From Komagataeibacter sp. FNDCF1 (GTDB lineage: Bacteria; Pseudomonadota; Alphaproteobacteria; Acetobacterales; Acetobacteraceae), in assembly GCF_021295335.1 (NCBI RefSeq), contig NZ_JAIWOT010000001.1:1863001-1927000 (forward strand): a stretch of DNA of 64,000 nt, written 5' to 3'. A program made the translations under genes and the position numbers. The notes beneath the pieces are model-generated. The model was not told the origin of the DNA. It searched no databases and saw only the letters and a program-made list of their open reading frames with translations. Of this stretch, positions 24,278 to 55,116 are shown one piece after another. Positions within the stretch are counted from its first letter, which is position 1. Each line of letters starts with the position of its first letter.

Positions 24278-25000
24278 ATGCCCCGAGCAACTGCATCCTC
24301 TTTCACCACAAAATCGCGCCGTCTTGCGGCGAAAACGCGTAGCGGCGCTGTGGTTCTCAGCGCACGCGGCGTGCAACCCGTTTCCATTCCTGTCGGACGC
24401 ACTGCGCTGACATCTGTCGCCAGACAGGTGGGAACAGCACGCTCTGTAATCGAAAATCTCGGCCACGCGCTGGCGGAGACCCGGAAAACAGGACGTGGCG
24501 TCCGCTTTTCAGTCGAAGTCACGCCCGAAGGTACAGTCCGGATTGTGCATCCTCCAGAGAATCAGGACATTGCAGGCACACAGGCGGCGGAGCGCACGTC
24601 CGGTAGCGGTCTGGCGCGCGCGAAGGCGCGTGGCGAGGCGCTGGCCGCCAGCATTCTTGCCCATGAGGATATGGTGACGGCGGAAGAACTGGCGCGGCGC
24701 ATGGGAACAACCCGTGTCACGGTGAATGCCCGTCGGCACGCTCGCCAACTGATCGGCCTCGAAGGCCCGACACGCGGTTATCGTTACCCGGCCTGGCAAC
24801 TCGATCGCGACGGTCGTCCGTTCGCTATCATCCCGAACCTGTTTACCGCGCTTGGCGACAGTCCGTGGACCATTTACCGGTTCCTCACCCAAAAGCACCC
24901 TGAACTCGAAGGACGGACTGCAATCGCGGCCTTGGAGAAAGGAGAAGATAAACGCGTCCTCTCGGTCGCGGCCAGTATCGCCGAGGGCACCTTCGCGTAA
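24278..25000 (+). CDS. Antitoxin partner of a RES-domain toxin (Xre/MbcA-ParS-like)
   Basis: 240 residues. A central helix-turn-helix reads DMVTAEELARRMGTTRVTVN; the C-terminus has PNLFTALGDSPWTIYRFLTQ and LEGRTAIAALEKGEDKRVLS, a pattern of the small domain of RES-partner antitoxins. The N-terminal 100 residues are basic and unusual. The stop is directly followed by the toxin ATG (TAAATG), as in two-gene toxin-antitoxin operons. It likely binds and represses its own promoter. Confidence 0.78.
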   Translation: MPRATASSFTTKSRRLAAKTRSGAVVLSARGVQPVSIPVGRTALTSVARQVGTARSVIENLGHALAETRKTGRGVRFSVEVTPEGTVRIVHPPENQDIAGTQAAERTSGSGLARAKARGEALAASILAHEDMVTAEELARRMGTTRVTVNARRHARQLIGLEGPTRGYRYPAWQLDRDGRPFAIIPNLFTALGDSPWTIYRFLTQKHPELEGRTAIAALEKGEDKRVLSVAASIAEGTFA

Positions 25001-25615
25001 ATGTCGTCCGCAAGCCTACCCCCCAGCAACTTCGACCAAGCTGACCTCGTTGTGACAACAGTACCAGCCGGTACCCGTTATGGGCGCGTCCTGTTGCGGC
25101 GGTTTTCGGACACTCTGGGTTTCGGCAAGAACGAGAGCCGGTTCAGCGATCCTAGGGATCTGCCACCACCTGAGCGGTTTGGGGTTCTTTATGTCGGCAG
25201 CACCCTGAAGGTTTGTTTCGTGGAAGCCATCCTGCGCGACAGTCGTGATGGCGTAATCGGAGAGCTTCTGCTCGCCGAGCAGGAAATCACCGACCGTGAT
25301 TATGCGGAGATCGTGGTGGTCACTGATTTGCGGGTTGTCGATCTGCGGAGCGACAATCCCTTAAGGATGGGCATTCCCAGTGATGTAGTCGGCGGATCGG
25401 ACCAGCGTCCCGCGCGCCAATGGTCACTCGCACTCCATAACCATCCTGCCAAACCTGACGGTATTCTCTATCCCTCCCGATTGAACGAGGAAATCAATCT
25501 GGCAATCTTCGAACGTGCCATTCCAAAACTATCGGAAGCTGCCAGGATGAATCTTAATGGAATCTTCGCACTCGAAGATATTCTCGATCTCTTTCAGGTG
25601 GCCATCAGAGAGTGA
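25001..25615 (+). CDS. RES-family NAD+-degrading toxin
   Basis: 204 residues with the RES pattern: TVPAGTRYGRVLLRRFSDTL (Arg), SRFSDPRDLPPPERFGVLYV (Tyr), STLKVCFVEAILRDSRDG (Glu), VVTDLRVVDLRS and ARQWSLALHNHPAKPDGILY (Ser/Pro region). RES toxins deplete NAD+ by phosphorolysis and arrest growth unless bound by the antitoxin. Immediate downstream position of the antitoxin gene supports the call. Confidence 0.85.
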   Translation: MSSASLPPSNFDQADLVVTTVPAGTRYGRVLLRRFSDTLGFGKNESRFSDPRDLPPPERFGVLYVGSTLKVCFVEAILRDSRDGVIGELLLAEQEITDRDYAEIVVVTDLRVVDLRSDNPLRMGIPSDVVGGSDQRPARQWSLALHNHPAKPDGILYPSRLNEEINLAIFERAIPKLSEAARMNLNGIFALEDILDLFQVAIRE

Positions 25616-25903: not shown

Positions 25904-26677
25904 TCATGCCATGGGAAACACGACCGTATCGATCGATGCGTCTCCCTGCCGCACCAATTCCAGCCCAGCCACAAATGTCGCAGCTACAGCCGCTCGACGA
26001 GCGATTAATCCCTCAGGCTCAGCAAACGGCGTCGCAGGAACACAGTCCCATATGCTTCGGAAAGCTCCGTTTCTCATTTTCGCTCGGATAAAGGCCAATG
26101 CATCGGTCACACGCCAGTAGGCAGGCACATCAATCCGATAGATCGGAACCGAGAACTCAATCTGCGCCAGTTCCCGCTCCAGTACACTGAGACAGGCTTC
26201 CATCAGACTGAAATACGTCCCCTGCCGTACAGAATCACTACGATCCACGTCTGTTCCGCCCCGCGTAAAAACCGACACGCCAAGCTGTGGCTTCGCTTCC
26301 AGCCAGTCTGCCGCTGCGCGCATCTGCAACAGCCCTTCAATCTGGCCGACGGTCCGGCGCGCTTCATTTTCGGCAAGCTGTTTTTCTGCCTGGGTGGCAA
26401 ACAGCAGCCGCGAGCGCAGGAAGACCAGCCGGGCGATCCAGATCACCCAGTCCGCACGCTGCATGAGCGGCGTCGTGCAGGCCAACCGCTCCGCCTCAGC
26501 GACAAACTGGGCCGCCAGATCTGCAATGGACAGCACGCCCAGATCCAGACGCTGGCGTTCCGCCAGATCCAGCAGCAGGTCCAGCGGCCCGTCAAACCCC
26601 TCGACATGGAACTCGGGCACCGCCGGGCGCGGCCGCCGGCGCGGCGGATCACCCCAGTCTTCCTCGTCAGGCAGCAT
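25904..26677 (-). CDS. scpA: ScpA-like kleisin, orphan copy on accessory DNA
   Basis: The protein reads MLPDEEDWGDPPRRR..., FHVEGFDGPLDLLLDLAERQ, RLDLGVLSIADLAAQFVAEA, LVFLRSRLLFATQAEKQLAE, and ends with a winged-helix region (IDVPAYWRVTDALAFIRAKM, AVAATFVAGLELVRQG). EGFDGPLDLLL is the ScpA hallmark. Kleisins bridge SMC heads and with ScpB compact and segregate DNA. No smc or scpB is present here. The start at 26677 lies inside the end of the upstream gene (ATGCTGCCTGA), so the two are coupled; an alternative ATG is at 26695. Confidence 0.85.
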   Translation of the reverse strand: MLPDEEDWGDPPRRRPRPAVPEFHVEGFDGPLDLLLDLAERQRLDLGVLSIADLAAQFVAEAERLACTTPLMQRADWVIWIARLVFLRSRLLFATQAEKQLAENEARRTVGQIEGLLQMRAAADWLEAKPQLGVSVFTRGGTDVDRSDSVRQGTYFSLMEACLSVLERELAQIEFSVPIYRIDVPAYWRVTDALAFIRAKMRNGAFRSIWDCVPATPFAEPEGLIARRAAVAATFVAGLELVRQGDASIDTVVFPMA

Positions 26678-28004
26678 TGGCGGTCTTCTCGGCATCAGCC
26701 CGCGCGTATTGCGGCCGGATGTCGAACACCAGCTCTGGCCAGTCCGTCCGCACCCGCTCCAGCGCCTGCCATGGCGTCCATTCCGCCGACCAGAAGCGGT
26801 AGACCAGCCGGGCGCTGCGGCGGACGCGCTGGTCGCGCGGGGCTTCGACCTCCACCCGACGCAACGGCAGCAGCGTGCCCCAATGCGCTCGCAGCCAAGC
26901 CGCCGCCGCGCGGGAGTCCGACCCGGCTTCCAGAAGGGGACCGGGAACAGGCACCAGCCGGTGCAGGTCAAAGGCACAGGCGGGCGTGCCCGCCGCCTGG
27001 TGCTGCAGGGCGATCCGATGCACGCGCTCGGACGCCTGCCGCAGCAGACGGGCCAGCGTCACCGCCTGCGCCCCCCTCCCCGCCATCGGCACCAGCAGGC
27101 GGGCCTGTTCGTAGTCAAAATCCACCTGCCAGGGAATGATCCCCGGACCCCGGGCCGCCGCCCGGAACCGGGCCACTTCGTCTACCGGACCGCTTACCGT
27201 CAGCGTTGTCCGGATCCAGTCCGGGGTCGGTCTCAGCATGCGTTGACGCGTTGGCGTCCGGACTGAGGACTCTGGCGGGGACCCCGATTTTGTCCGCCGC
27301 GCCCGGTGAGCCGGACGGTCCAGGCGCCCCAGCGCCCGGTCCAGCACGAACCGGATCCCGGGCACCGAGAGCGGATCCCCGACGGTGCCATGGACGTCGA
27401 TCCCCCGGAACGCCGCCCCCCAGCGCAGTTGCGCGGCATCGCGCCAGGCGGCCCAGGACCGCACCGGACAGACGGCCAGATCCCGGCGCCGTCGCAACCG
27501 GCGCAACTGGTGCCGCCCGGACCGGGGCCGTAGCAGGGCGACGGTCATGCCGTCCGTCGTGTCGGTGATATCTTCGATGGTCAGACGGGCCAGTGCCTCG
27601 GCACCGATGTCCAGCGCTGCCGCCAGCAGCAGCAAAGCCCGGTCGCGCAGGCCGGACAGGTCGGGCCCGCAGCGTCGCACGGCGGCCAGCAGGGAAGCCA
27701 CATCGACCCCGGCCCCGGTCTGGCGCACCCGCGTAGCGGGCAGGGCAACATCAAGCCCCTCGCCATTGGCGGCACACCACGCTGTCAGCGCCGCGCGATC
27801 CACCACCAGGCTCTGCCGCGGCCGCCCGGCCTTGGCCCGGGCGTCCAGCCACGCTGCCACCGCGGCAGGGCCGACCGGAAAACAGAGGCCGACTGTCTGG
27901 GTCCCGACAAAGGCGCGCCACGACGCTGCGTAGGCCCGTGCCGTAGCAGGCGACAGGCCGGTCGGTGGCCGCGCCGCCTGCAGCAATCGGCCGGTCTCAG
28001 CCAT
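26667..28004 (-). CDS. Tyrosine-recombinase-like domain fused to Api92/YubB-like domain
   Basis: 445 residues. Residues 1-225 follow a tyrosine recombinase: a SAM-like N-terminus (LSPATARAYAASWRAFVGTQ, AVAAWLDARAKAGRPRQSLV) and the start of the catalytic domain (LRDRALLLLAAALDIGAEAL, ARLTIEDI), alignable with the intact enzyme at 31277-32722. The first catalytic Arg (GAFRRSEL in the intact enzyme) is replaced (ALDIGAEAL), and the HxxR, His and Tyr region is absent. The last 200 residues (LTVSGPVDEVARFRAAARGP, WLRAHWGTLLPLRRVEV, RFWSAEWTPWQALERVRTDW) resemble the Api92/YubB ferredoxin-like domain. It cannot be a working recombinase; coupling to scpA suggests a role in DNA maintenance. Function unknown. 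Confidence 0.6.
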   Translation of the reverse strand: MAETGRLLQAARPPTGLSPATARAYAASWRAFVGTQTVGLCFPVGPAAVAAWLDARAKAGRPRQSLVVDRAALTAWCAANGEGLDVALPATRVRQTGAGVDVASLLAAVRRCGPDLSGLRDRALLLLAAALDIGAEALARLTIEDITDTTDGMTVALLRPRSGRHQLRRLRRRRDLAVCPVRSWAAWRDAAQLRWGAAFRGIDVHGTVGDPLSVPGIRFVLDRALGRLDRPAHRARRTKSGSPPESSVRTPTRQRMLRPTPDWIRTTLTVSGPVDEVARFRAAARGPGIIPWQVDFDYEQARLLVPMAGRGAQAVTLARLLRQASERVHRIALQHQAAGTPACAFDLHRLVPVPGPLLEAGSDSRAAAAWLRAHWGTLLPLRRVEVEAPRDQRVRRSARLVYRFWSAEWTPWQALERVRTDWPELVFDIRPQYARADAEKTANAA

Positions 28005-28273: not shown

Positions 28274-28301
28274 TACTTCCGATAAGTTATCTTGTCGGAA
28301 G
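28274..28301. promoter_or_regulatory. Inverted repeat, operator-like
   Basis: ACTTCCGA (28274-28281) and TCGGAAGT (28294-28301) are exact inverse copies separated by 12 AT-rich bases. The 28-bp dyad is 270 bp upstream of the recombinase-like/scpA operon start on the reverse strand. It has the size and symmetry of a dimeric regulator site. Confidence 0.5.
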
Positions 28302-28342
28302 TATGACAAATCTGGAAATTCCTGCTAATTTTATCGAAAGGC

Positions 28343-29797: not shown

Positions 29798-30898
29798 ATG
29801 CTTTGGAATTGGCAGCTTCCGGACTGGCCACATTTTCACTTCGAGAAAAGCTGTCTGCGAGACGCCGAAACGGAGTTCCTGAAAGGTTCAGGCGTGGTCG
29901 TCGGTGCGATGCAGCATCTGGACAAAGACGCCAATCAGCATCTTGTCGTTCAACTCATGTCGCAAGAAACGGTCGAGAGCTCCGCTATTGAAGGCGAGGA
30001 GCTTGATCGGGCCAGTGTGCAATCGTCGATTGCGCGACACCTTGGCTTCGCCACAGACAGGCGACGTTCTACGCCAACTGAGGCTGGGGCCGCTGAATTG
30101 ATGGCGGACCTCTATCGGCATTATGCGGCCCCTTTGACTGACCAGAGTCTCTTTGAGTGGCATGCCATGCTCATGAACGGTCGGCGAGATCTGGATGTCA
30201 TTGGCAGATATCGGACGCATGCCGAGGCAATGCAGATTATCTCCGGCCCCATCCATGCGCCGCACATCCACTTCGAAGCCCCGCCATCTCGAAGCGTCCC
30301 TTCGGAGATGGCGCAGTTTATCGGCTGGTTTAACAGGACCGCCCCAGGCGGGATCGACCCCTTGCCCGCGATTGAGCGGGCTGCGATTGCGCATCTGTGG
30401 TTTGAGACCATTCATCCCTTTGAAGATGGAAATGGTCGCATCGGACGGGCTATTGCTGAAAAAGCATTGGCGCAAACCCTCGCAGCCCCAACGCTGACGG
30501 CGTTGGCCGCGACCATCAATACATACAAGAAAGCGTATTATCTCGAACTGCATCGGGCCAGCAAGACGAACCAGATAGAGAACTGGATGGTCTGGTTCTC
30601 TCAGGTCGTGTTGGAGGCGCAATCCCGCACGCTTCGGAACATCCGGTTTCTTATTGAGAAAACGCGGTTTCTGGATCGCTTACGCGGAAAACTGAACATT
30701 CGTCAGGAGAAGGCCCTGCTTCGAATGCTGGCAGAAGGGCCTGATGGTTTTCAAGGTGGCCTGAGTGCCCAGAATTATCGGTCGATTACAGGGGCGACGT
30801 CTGCCACGGCGACGCGTGATCTGGTTGATCTGGTGGCGCTTGATGCTCTTATTCGGACAGGAGAAAACCGGTATGCCCGGTATTCTCTTCGTCTCTGA
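29798..30898 (+). CDS. Fic-domain protein with N-terminal inhibitory helix
   Basis: 366 residues. The N-terminal domain (MLWNWQLPDWPHFHFEKSCL) is of the DUF4172 type. An inhibition motif ETVESSAIEGEE lies near residue 60, as in class II Fic proteins where the Glu blocks ATP. The core motif ETIHPFEDGNGRIGRAIAEK (HPFxDGNGRxGR) is complete, so AMP-transfer to a target Tyr/Ser/Thr is expected. A C-terminal winged-helix-like region (LNIRQEKALLRMLAEGPDGF, ATATRDLVDLVALDALIR) probably binds DNA, perhaps the upstream inverted repeat. Confidence 0.9.
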   Translation: MLWNWQLPDWPHFHFEKSCLRDAETEFLKGSGVVVGAMQHLDKDANQHLVVQLMSQETVESSAIEGEELDRASVQSSIARHLGFATDRRRSTPTEAGAAELMADLYRHYAAPLTDQSLFEWHAMLMNGRRDLDVIGRYRTHAEAMQIISGPIHAPHIHFEAPPSRSVPSEMAQFIGWFNRTAPGGIDPLPAIERAAIAHLWFETIHPFEDGNGRIGRAIAEKALAQTLAAPTLTALAATINTYKKAYYLELHRASKTNQIENWMVWFSQVVLEAQSRTLRNIRFLIEKTRFLDRLRGKLNIRQEKALLRMLAEGPDGFQGGLSAQNYRSITGATSATATRDLVDLVALDALIRTGENRYARYSLRL

Positions 30899-31276: not shown

Positions 31277-32722
31277 ATGCTGAGCGACATCCGCATCCTC
31301 GGCTCCAGCAGGCGCGCGCAGGCCGCGCTGCACGCCCGCGTTGACCATTTGACACGACAGCGTCTGGCCGAGACACAGGACCCGGCGCGCTGGCGCGAAA
31401 TCCTCTCGACCGCGCGGTTCACCCCGCCCCTGCCCCTGCTTCTGGCGGGCATCGAATTGCCGGACGGTAGCTATTCCCCGGATATCCCCCTCGCCCAGGG
31501 CGTGCCATATGCGTCGGCTGCCCAGCAGATGGCTCAGGACCATGTTGGCAATGCCCCATCGGGGTTTGAACTGGCCGTCGGACTGGAAATTGATGACGGC
31601 ACGCCCAGCTTCCTGGCCTGGTTCCGACCGCTCCAGTCCGTAGGGTCCTGTCCCGAGACGTCAGACGCAGCGCCTCCTGCACCCGTCGGCCAGCCGGCAG
31701 CTACCGTCGCGCAATGGTTTTCCGTCGTCTCGACGCAACCTGTACCCGAACATGATGGCCGCCTTGCCACCGCCCGTCAGGCGGCTGATGCCTATATGCA
31801 CCGCAGCAAGGCCGGGAACACGCTACGCACCTATCGTGCCGCCGTGCGATCCTGGTGCCAGTGGGCTGCTGGCCATACCCTGCCCGCCCTGCCAGCCCGC
31901 GGCGAAGATGTCGCCGCCTATCTGGCCGACATGGCGCTGCAGGGGCGCAGGACCAGCACTATCGACCTGCACCGTGCAGCCCTGCGCTACCTGCACCACC
32001 TGGCGCAGATTGCCGTGCCAACCTCTCACCCGATGGTGACCGCAACCCTCGCCGGCATCCGTCGGGAAGCCAAGGAGGCCCTGCCCCGCCAGAAAACCGC
32101 GCTCACCTGGGACAGGCTGGTCCGGGTCGTCGATACCATCAGTCCACATGATCTGGTCGGCGCGCGGGACCGGGCCATTCTGCTCCTCGGTTTTGCCGGC
32201 GCGTTCCGACGCTCCGAGCTTGCCGCACTGAAAGTGGACGACATCACGATGGACGAGGATGGCATGCAGATCCGGCTGGGCCGGTCCAAGGGGGATCCCC
32301 AGCGCAAGGGCGCGCTGATCGGCATCCCGCGGGGCCTGACCCGGAACTGCCCGGTTCTGGCGTACGAAGTCTGGCTCCGGCAGGCCGGGATCGCGGAAGG
32401 TCCCGTCTTCCGCCGCATCTGGTCCGCACGGGGTCACAGGGCGGGAGTTACTCCCGTCGGGGTGCTGCCCAGGATCGGGCCGCACGCCCTGTCGGACCGG
32501 GCGGTCACGGACATCATCCGCAAACGATGCGGTGACATCCACCTTGAGGGGGACTTTGGCGGGCACAGCCTGCGCCGTGGCGCCATCACCACAGGGGCAA
32601 AAGACGGGTATGACCTTCTGGAACTGAAGCGCTTCTCGCGACATAAAAGTCTCCAGGTCGTCGAGACCTATATCGACGAGGCCAGCATCAAGGCCCGGCA
32701 CCCGGGAAGGTCGAGATTCTGA
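31277..32722 (+). CDS. Tyrosine-type site-specific recombinase with N-terminal extension
   Basis: 481 residues. About 165 N-terminal residues are not part of the recombinase fold. A SAM-like domain follows (NTLRTYRAAVRSWCQWAAGH, DVAAYLADMALQGRRTSTID), then the catalytic domain: Arg in GFAGAFRRSELAALKVDDI, Lys near LGRSKGDPQRKG, HSLRRGAITTGAKDG (HxxR), FSRHKSLQVVETYIDEAS (His and Tyr). All catalytic residues are present. It could act in plasmid dimer resolution or element integration; no attachment sites are evident next to it. Confidence 0.9.
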   Translation: MLSDIRILGSSRRAQAALHARVDHLTRQRLAETQDPARWREILSTARFTPPLPLLLAGIELPDGSYSPDIPLAQGVPYASAAQQMAQDHVGNAPSGFELAVGLEIDDGTPSFLAWFRPLQSVGSCPETSDAAPPAPVGQPAATVAQWFSVVSTQPVPEHDGRLATARQAADAYMHRSKAGNTLRTYRAAVRSWCQWAAGHTLPALPARGEDVAAYLADMALQGRRTSTIDLHRAALRYLHHLAQIAVPTSHPMVTATLAGIRREAKEALPRQKTALTWDRLVRVVDTISPHDLVGARDRAILLLGFAGAFRRSELAALKVDDITMDEDGMQIRLGRSKGDPQRKGALIGIPRGLTRNCPVLAYEVWLRQAGIAEGPVFRRIWSARGHRAGVTPVGVLPRIGPHALSDRAVTDIIRKRCGDIHLEGDFGGHSLRRGAITTGAKDGYDLLELKRFSRHKSLQVVETYIDEASIKARHPGRSRF

Positions 32723-54173: not shown

Positions 54174-55116
54174 TGAAGGCCCGGTCTGGCTGACGCCCGC
54201 TCCCCTTCCTGAAAGGCCGCGGGCGCGCCCCATCCGGAAAGCAGGACAGCCCCCACACCACGCCGGAAAGAAGATGACCCTCACACCCTCTTCCCGGCCC
54301 GCCTCAGTGCGTGACCGGATGCAGGAACCGCGCCACGTCCTGAGGGGCAAGCTGGGGATGCAGGATCGCCCGCATCGCCCCACGCCCGAGGTAGCGGAGA
54401 TCATCATTGAAATCCGCCAGACGCGGTGACAGCACAAGGCACTCGATCCCGGCTTCCTGCGTCCGGGCCTGCAGGGTCGTCACCGCATGGTCCCCGGCCG
54501 GGTCGTCATCGCGCAGCACGTAGAGGCGGCGCAGCATGGACGGAAACGCCATGGCGGCGAGATGCGCCGAGGACATGCAGGCGGCCAGTGGCAGAGCGGG
54601 CATGATCTCATGGAGCGACAGCGCCGTCTCGATCCCCTCGCCTGCCGCCAGAACGTCGGACATCGCGCCAAAGCGCACGGCGTGGCCGAGCAGGTCGCCC
54701 ATGGCCCGACGGGGCATGGCGACGGGGGCCTTGCCCTTTCCGTCCCGCGCCAGCCAGGTGCGATGGACGCCTGTAACGCGGCTATCAAGGTTGGTGACGG
54801 CGGCAATCAGCGCGGGCCAGGTCTCGGTCGAACTGTCGGCATCGGCCCGGTAGTAGCAATCCGGGTGAAAACGCAGGGATGAAAGGTCTGACAGGCGTGT
54901 CAGGTCACGATGCCGCAGCCAGGTTTCCGCCAGAGTGCCGGCGATCGGGCGGGACATGGACCAGAGCCGACGTGCGGCGTCTGCGGTGCCAGATGCCTGC
55001 CCGGAAGTATCCTGGCTGAACGCATGGGAACGGCCGCGATCAGATTCCATGAGGAGTGGATAGCGAGCCGCGCCGTGTCAGAGTGTGCTTGCTGAAACTC
55101 TCTGGAGGGCAGAACC

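Follow-up and report, generated by a model that had tools for sequence, protein, structure and literature searches.

We propose, with a probability of roughly 0.6, that the locus described here is part of a module of large plasmids that combines Xer/dif-like site-specific recombination (resolution) with a condensin kleisin of its own and would be wired to SMC. The window, i.e., the whole stretch of 64,000 nucleotides of Komagataeibacter sp. FNDCF1 that was analysed (C1:1863001-1927000), contains both open reading frames of the original prediction, which had described a kleisin adjoining a fusion of a dead recombinase part to an Api92-like half. This arrangement is confirmed, with a weak Api92 fold match, and the module extends past the borders drawn originally, so that it includes a dif-like site at 28275-28302 and a second recombinase (INT') at 31277-32722:

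25904..26677, minus strand: module kleisin (ScpA-like), 257 aa from ATG (ORF call, profile match, dN/dS)
26667..28004, minus strand: fusion, 445 aa, of a dead tyrosine recombinase part and an Api92-like HP domain (alignment, model, dN/dS)
28275..28302, minus strand: dif-like site, 28 bp, 11-6-11 palindrome (alignment and pattern scan)
31277..32722, plus strand: INT', divergent intact tyrosine recombinase, 481 aa (catalytic residues in alignment, PF00589)

The ATG at 26677 is a better start for the kleisin than the GTG at 26977 chosen originally, and from this start the kleisin and fusion genes overlap by 11 nt. With recombinase, site and private kleisin side by side, an arrangement conserved on large plasmids of acetic acid bacteria and related taxa, the locus suggests that plasmid-copy separation and DNA organisation could be served by one linked machine.

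The usual gene order of the module is a tyrosine recombinase (INT), followed by HP (Api92-like, ~190 aa) and ScpA, while in Komagataeibacter and close kin INT, now without its catalytic residues, forms a single protein with HP. Among 95 HP occurrences surveyed for gene order, a recombinase gene lies upstream of HP in 81 of the 86 with enough upstream DNA, and ScpA follows within 400 nt in 76 of the 90 with enough downstream DNA; the exceptions are HP without INT (5/86) and HP without ScpA within 400 nt (14/90). The pair thus recurs in other replicons, as the original prediction required: the fusion is found on nine Komagataeibacter plasmid records at 87.6-91.5% protein identity, each time with ScpA adjoining. 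Searches by tblastn placed HP in 50 plasmid records, each of at least 45 kb, and ScpA in 39. We also looked at one further plasmid in each of five strains with a module plasmid; those of 13, 17, 31 and 43 kb appear in neither the HP nor the ScpA list, and one of 171 kb gave no HP or ScpA match, though HP is present on other plasmids of that strain. A genome scan with the HP alignment yielded 152 relatives, from which 80 loci were kept. HP occurs in at least 72 of 299 genomes of the family (at least 29 of 102 genera) and in at least 2 of 385 genomes in a sample of the class, including that of the window; these counts are lower bounds because at most 10 (family) or 8 (class) candidates were scored per genome. 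The class sample includes a few genomes of the same family. A terminus-like placement of the module was considered and rejected because its distance to ParA varies from ~1.4 kb to nearly opposite, following no rule.

Residues ~1-225 of the fusion correspond to a catalytically dead tyrosine recombinase, comprising the core-binding domain and part of the catalytic half, and residues ~259-434 to the Api92-like HP domain. The recombinase fold originally proposed for the N-terminal half is borne out in its first part by structure prediction, in which residues 1-94 model as a recombinase core-binding domain; residues 7-94 align with integron integrase 2a3v (VIA-align Z 9.8), archaeal Xer 4a8e (Z 9.1) and XerA 5hxy (Z 8.8). 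Residues 134-259 are poorly modelled, and the remnant catalytic half was therefore placed by alignment. In this alignment a G replaces the first catalytic Arg of intact relatives and both HxxR and Tyr are absent, in agreement with the original reading of the catalytic residues. For the HP half, the top Foldseek match is Api92 (2ijr, DUF1281), a weak one at E 0.028 and prob 0.99, and superposition on 2ijr likewise gives a weak fold match (Z 7.9, rmsd 8.3 over 157 residues); sequence searches of Pfam and PDB with this half at E 1 returned nothing above chance level. Over the whole fusion protein dN/dS is 0.20, based on 17 copies without internal stops, after removal of pairs in which synonymous changes were too few or saturated; that the frames are open partly reflects the way the copies were picked, namely as open fused frames. 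Broken down by part, the recombinase portion gives 0.19 (residues 1-110) and 0.126 (residues 111-225), the two HP parts 0.16 and 0.28, and the linker 0.40. On these values the dead recombinase part is under purifying selection and does not look like a decaying relic.

Assignment of the kleisin relies on the family as a whole. A profile of 53 module ScpAs matches the solved ScpA chains 3w6j (1.2e-18), 4i98 (1.9e-18) and 3zgx (6.3e-15) and covers both their N-terminal SMC-binding and their middle ScpB-binding regions, and PF02616 was found in 48 of the 53. The window ScpA alone scores 18.9 bits, under the Pfam cut-off of 24.6, and is absent from the whole-genome Pfam matches at E 0.001. Fold searches with its predicted model gave unrelated helical matches only, so that ScpA membership is founded on sequence. 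Across 16 copies without internal stops dN/dS is 0.24 over the whole protein and falls to 0.08 in residues 19-100, which are SMC-binding by homology, the lowest value of the parts tested. In the ScpA tree, from which ten near-copies and matches of 600 nt or less were dropped and in which the locus L094 is present twice (also as L105), a single branch with 100/100 support splits module ScpA (64 rows) from chromosomal ScpA (30 rows). Because of this branch, module ScpA is an old, separate lineage outside that of chromosomal scpA and does not consist of recent copies. In 60 genomes of the family, nine of the ten ScpA matches beyond one per genome adjoin HP, and the tenth lies at a contig end. A PHROGs family of unknown function (phrog_30628) matches the window ScpA at 2.8e-5, and another (phrog_31717) matches the ScpB of a Gluconobacter module (P0001) at 6.5e-19; phages may carry such ScpA- and ScpB-like proteins too.

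The original prediction also described the kleisin as lacking SMC and ScpB. This holds for the window, as genome-wide family searches put the sole ScpB and all SMC matches elsewhere, and the genome carries SMC, ScpB and its own ScpA outside the module. It does not hold throughout, since L009 (Gluconobacter sphaericus), L081 and L091 have ScpB upstream of INT, although L081 has no ScpA directly behind HP. Upstream of the module in L091 (Acetobacter nitrogenifigens), four consecutive ScpB-like matches were observed (L091:2487-4537). On 11 module plasmids searched, ScpB was found on one, the Gluconobacter plasmid, and SMC over the cut-off on none, with weak matches on five. SMC, and mostly ScpB, would for this reason have to be supplied by the host. 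None of the PADLOC families was matched at E 0.01 by the fusion, ScpA, INT' or the Gluconobacter ScpB.

Where INT is a separate gene upstream of HP, the catalytic Arg, HxxR and Tyr are kept in 50 of 63 cases; the 13 counted as non-intact include L006 (cut by the locus edge), L056 (broken up) and L072, in which one HxxR residue differs. All 22 fused INTs, one of them cut by a contig end, lack these residues. The fusion looks like a derived state, given that most separate INTs retain them. It was found in Komagataeibacter, Novacetimonas and Gluconacetobacter entanii and, as a more distant case, in Acetobacter sicerae (L032). INT is dead and yet separate in L007, L033, L034, L036, L057, L061, L071, L084, L085 and L090. 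An HP tree was built without 15 named loci (near-copies, L006, L056 and L072); HP matches shorter than 450 nt and rows in which no INT had been scored were also left out. On this tree the dead state needs four changes, three of which are forced by well-supported branches, and a topology with the dead loci as a single clade is rejected (p-AU 2e-66). At least three or four losses of catalysis took place.

Loss of catalysis goes together with the presence of INT'. In the window, INT' has the catalytic Arg, Lys, HxxR and Tyr by alignment, matches PF00589 at 2e-11 and shows a dN/dS of 0.135. A divergent recombinase of at least 100 bits lies upstream in 22 of 30 loci with a dead INT and in 2 of 44 with an intact one; L056 and L072 were excluded from this count, and L006 was not taken as dead. 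The dead loci without an INT' of 100 bits are L022, L024, L026, L032, L033, L034, L036 and L071. Lineages are a fairer counting unit than rows here, many dead rows being Komagataeibacter near-copies, and all four dead groups on the HP tree have a member with an INT' of at least 230 bits, as scored with a profile trained on L007's own INT'. The start of INT' is ~430 bp from that of the fusion in L003 and ~3.3 kb in the window, with other genes between. One of these, between site and INT', encodes a Fic protein with DUF4172 (29798-30898); K. rhaeticus plasmids of ~10 kb likewise carry a stretch with Fic and INT'. In L007 (Lichenicola), a gene with a DnaB-like helicase domain lies between the site and the dead INT (L007:5611-6459).

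The dif-like site emerged from an alignment of Komagataeibacter intergenic copies and reads ACTTCCGACAA-GATAAC-TTATCGGAAGT (11-6-11) in the window, where it occurs once; it has one place in the genome, and its pattern gave zero matches in 100 shuffles. Of the 20 fused-type loci having the site, 19 match its arms exactly. We scanned 93 loci for CGAYAA-N5..8-TTATCG with palindromic outer arms, a pattern derived from the same loci, and found a site at -2200 to +60 of the INT start in 56 of them (187 kb in total), with 3 matches in the other 881 kb. A control in which single bases were shuffled and the window was left out gave 0 matches at up to one mismatch and 8 at up to three. The outer arms vary between lineages yet remain palindromic. 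Site form follows the state of the recombinase: 24 of 27 sites at intact INTs are symmetric with a 7-bp spacer, and 28 of 29 sites at dead INTs, a class that includes L017 with its INT lost at a contig end, have a 6-bp spacer, 26 of these being asymmetric (CGACAA left, TTATCG right). Three of the four dead groups in the HP tree include sites of this asymmetric 6-bp form. This 6-bp signal needs the CGAYAA/TTATCG core, as plain 11-bp palindromes show no excess at 6 bp (45 versus 23 to 61 at other lengths) and were discarded as a source of the signal. Among loci with 1 kb of upstream sequence, a site is present in 28 of 32 with a dead INT, in 26 of 47 with an intact INT and in none of four without INT; intact-INT loci in which no site was detected may use other sequences or none. 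In all 20 loci having INT', site and dead INT, the site sits between the two recombinases. The exact core was found at one place on seven of 11 module plasmids searched, at two places on one (W03) and not on the other three. The second place on W03 is a symmetric 6-bp-spacer core to which no module was assigned, at 54812-54829 of CP004365.1 (pGX5). In L080, a leftover left half-site (L080:331-344) lies ~1.2 kb upstream of the full site (about 1521), an arrangement that looks as if DNA had been inserted into a site.

A natural junction coincides with the site in one clean case. Two loci from different species, L053 and L054, share a stretch of 8588 bp at 99.92% identity that begins at the first base of the site and runs to the end of the loci. 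There is no similarity to the left of the site, and five of the seven differences fall inside the site, four of those in the spacer. A crossover at the site would leave such a junction. Among 15 pairs of loci compared, eight, including this one, show site-side similarity that stops within 34 bp left of the site; it ends at ~90 bp in L062/L046 and ~70 bp in L002/L013, and in L084/L090 it continues through INT'. One or both members have no detected site in the remaining four pairs, two of which are near-alike over the whole locus. With tyrosine recombinases, differing spacers would keep different plasmids from fusing, and separate contigs of one strain carry similar arms with different 7-bp spacers both in Roseomonas pecuniae (L049, L059, L063) and in R. 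nepalensis (L043, L050). Komagataeibacter copies share one spacer except L025, even in two-copy strains (L014/L028), which would allow different plasmids to fuse.

In the genome studied here (3.74 Mb in 5 contigs), the module lies on the 3.53-Mb contig C1 and not on a plasmid-sized one. Pieces of the window from 19000-43500 match Komagataeibacter plasmids, and the region is for that reason likely a plasmid-derived stretch inside the chromosome. Entry of the plasmid via the dif-like site was rejected because the site is found at one place in the genome and thus has no flanking pair. Adjoining the module at 24278-25615 is a likely Xre-like/RES toxin-antitoxin pair, with a clear RES match and a weak partner, and a fragment at 23742-24167 matches a type ISP specificity domain at its C-terminal end only. 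A second INT-HP-ScpA copy lies on the same contig (G000:C1:2766844; L094, also L105:7821-10247), between what we take from the translations to be thiC and a tonB/exbB-like operon. Its INT lacks the catalytic Lys, no dif-like site was detected at this locus, and HP matches scoring like that of L094 occur in other genomes of the genus.

The wiring of an Xer/dif-like system to SMC is suggested by the fusion of INT to HP, by the overlap of the HP and ScpA genes and by the precedent of XerD unloading SMC in B. subtilis. Both gene arrangements suggest single working units, INT with HP in the case of the Komagataeibacter fusion and HP with ScpA in that of the overlap. In our proposal, the recombinase would recognise a palindrome of 28-29 bp close to its own gene, HP would link the site-bound recombinase to ScpA, and ScpA would engage host SMC together with host ScpB or, in a few cases, a module ScpB. 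Plasmid multimers would be resolved and sister plasmids organised at one place, HP and ScpA forming a constant core to which the recombinase would give an address. In a first type, a single intact recombinase would act on a symmetric site with a 7-bp spacer. In a second, which includes the window, labour would be split: INT' would cut, and the dead INT, fused to HP in the window, would still bind the site and hold the kleisin there, the dead and active partners sharing the asymmetric site; which half-site each would take is a guess. Multimer resolution, the HP-ScpA and ScpA-SMC contacts and the half-site assigned to each recombinase are what we infer from these arrangements, and unloading or tethering of SMC fits the data as well as loading does. 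A more specific version, which we favour somewhat less than its negation, holds that host SMC is captured or released by the private kleisin at the plasmid site to which the recombinase is bound, which would make a single regulated act of recombination and loop extrusion on the plasmid. Where catalysis was lost, the site reader would have been kept for the SMC side alone while cutting passed to a second recombinase, the site there being mostly asymmetric with a 6-bp centre in place of the symmetric form with 7 bp. On this version, a condensin would be dedicated to recombination on secondary replicons.

Three other explanations deserve consideration. The module could simply serve to resolve or integrate plasmids, with ScpA and HP confined to regulating the recombinase as architectural or directionality factors and making no contact with SMC. 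Recombinase, site and junction need no SMC, and accessory proteins are used by small-plasmid Xer systems, according to PMC11724359. We nevertheless consider this explanation unlikely, as the lowest dN/dS of the parts tested (0.08) is that of the kleisin region that is SMC-binding by homology, the family matches ScpA chains across both the SMC- and the ScpB-binding parts, and ScpB accompanies the module in L009, L081 and L091, although in L081 no ScpA follows HP. A second explanation, in which a site reader does not cut but loads the plasmid with host SMC in the manner of ParB-parS, recombination being unimportant, is closest to the original prediction of a non-cutting recogniser feeding a kleisin. 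That prediction stands insofar as a dead INT-HP fusion lies beside the kleisin, and purifying selection on the dead INT (0.126 in residues 111-225) and the repeated loss of catalysis while HP and ScpA were retained speak for it. It does not extend to the module at large: most separate INTs keep their catalytic residues (50/63), the window itself holds INT' and a site, INT' accompanies dead but rarely intact INTs (22/30 versus 2/44), and the L053/L054 junction falls at the site. We regard such a loader without recombination as improbable, more so than the purely regulatory role.

Least probable of the three, and very unlikely, is a decoy kleisin, i.e., a plasmid protein that replaces host ScpA and hinders host or anti-plasmid SMC complexes. 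The 11 module plasmids do carry a kleisin without SMC over the cut-off, and ten of them lack ScpB, as a decoy might; however, this would leave the linkage to a recombinase and a site unexplained, no PADLOC defence family matches the fusion, ScpA, INT' or ScpB, and a chromosomal copy of the module is retained in the genus. To our knowledge, the link between Xer proteins and SMC is known mainly from XerD unloading SMC in B. subtilis. The module makes this question testable in easily grown acetic acid bacteria, and its natural variants without catalysis, the rest being under selection, make the cutting role separable from the SMC role. It also offers a marker for, and a handle on, large-plasmid stability in cellulose- and vinegar-producing strains.

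Among known systems, Cre/loxP-type resolution systems of large low-copy plasmids likewise combine a plasmid-borne tyrosine recombinase with one site, but we know of no kleisin or Api92-like partner in them. Api92/YubB (DUF1281) resembles HP through the weak match of the predicted HP fold to 2ijr, whereas HP has no sequence match in Pfam or PDB. The parts of the module are of known kinds, and their combination was not found in the literature searched: among the matches listed, no title or abstract describes such a module, most subscription papers lying outside the searched set. Xer sites consist of two 11-bp arms and a 6-8 bp centre, as given in PMC11724359, and both one- and two-recombinase forms exist, as described in PMC5357621. 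The module is like the Xer/dif systems (XerCD, XerS, XerH, XerA) in pairing one or more tyrosine recombinases with a short pseudo-palindrome, here of 11-6-11 or 11-7-11, and the window holds a single pseudo-palindromic site within the 28-30 bp range. It is unlike them in that recombinase and site come as a set, with HP and a kleisin linked to them, and in that one partner is catalytically dead in the second type. An Xer-type protein also acts on the SMC-kleisin complex in B. subtilis, where XerD works at terminus sites and unloads SMC there, as cited in PMC12322038, PMC8357415 and PMC13342612; in the module, by contrast, the link is genetic, lies mostly on plasmids and involves a separate kleisin lineage. 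Overall, the module fits no one family fully, with a kleisin outside the chromosomal lineage, a window INT without the catalytic residues of a recombinase and a site that is dif-like.
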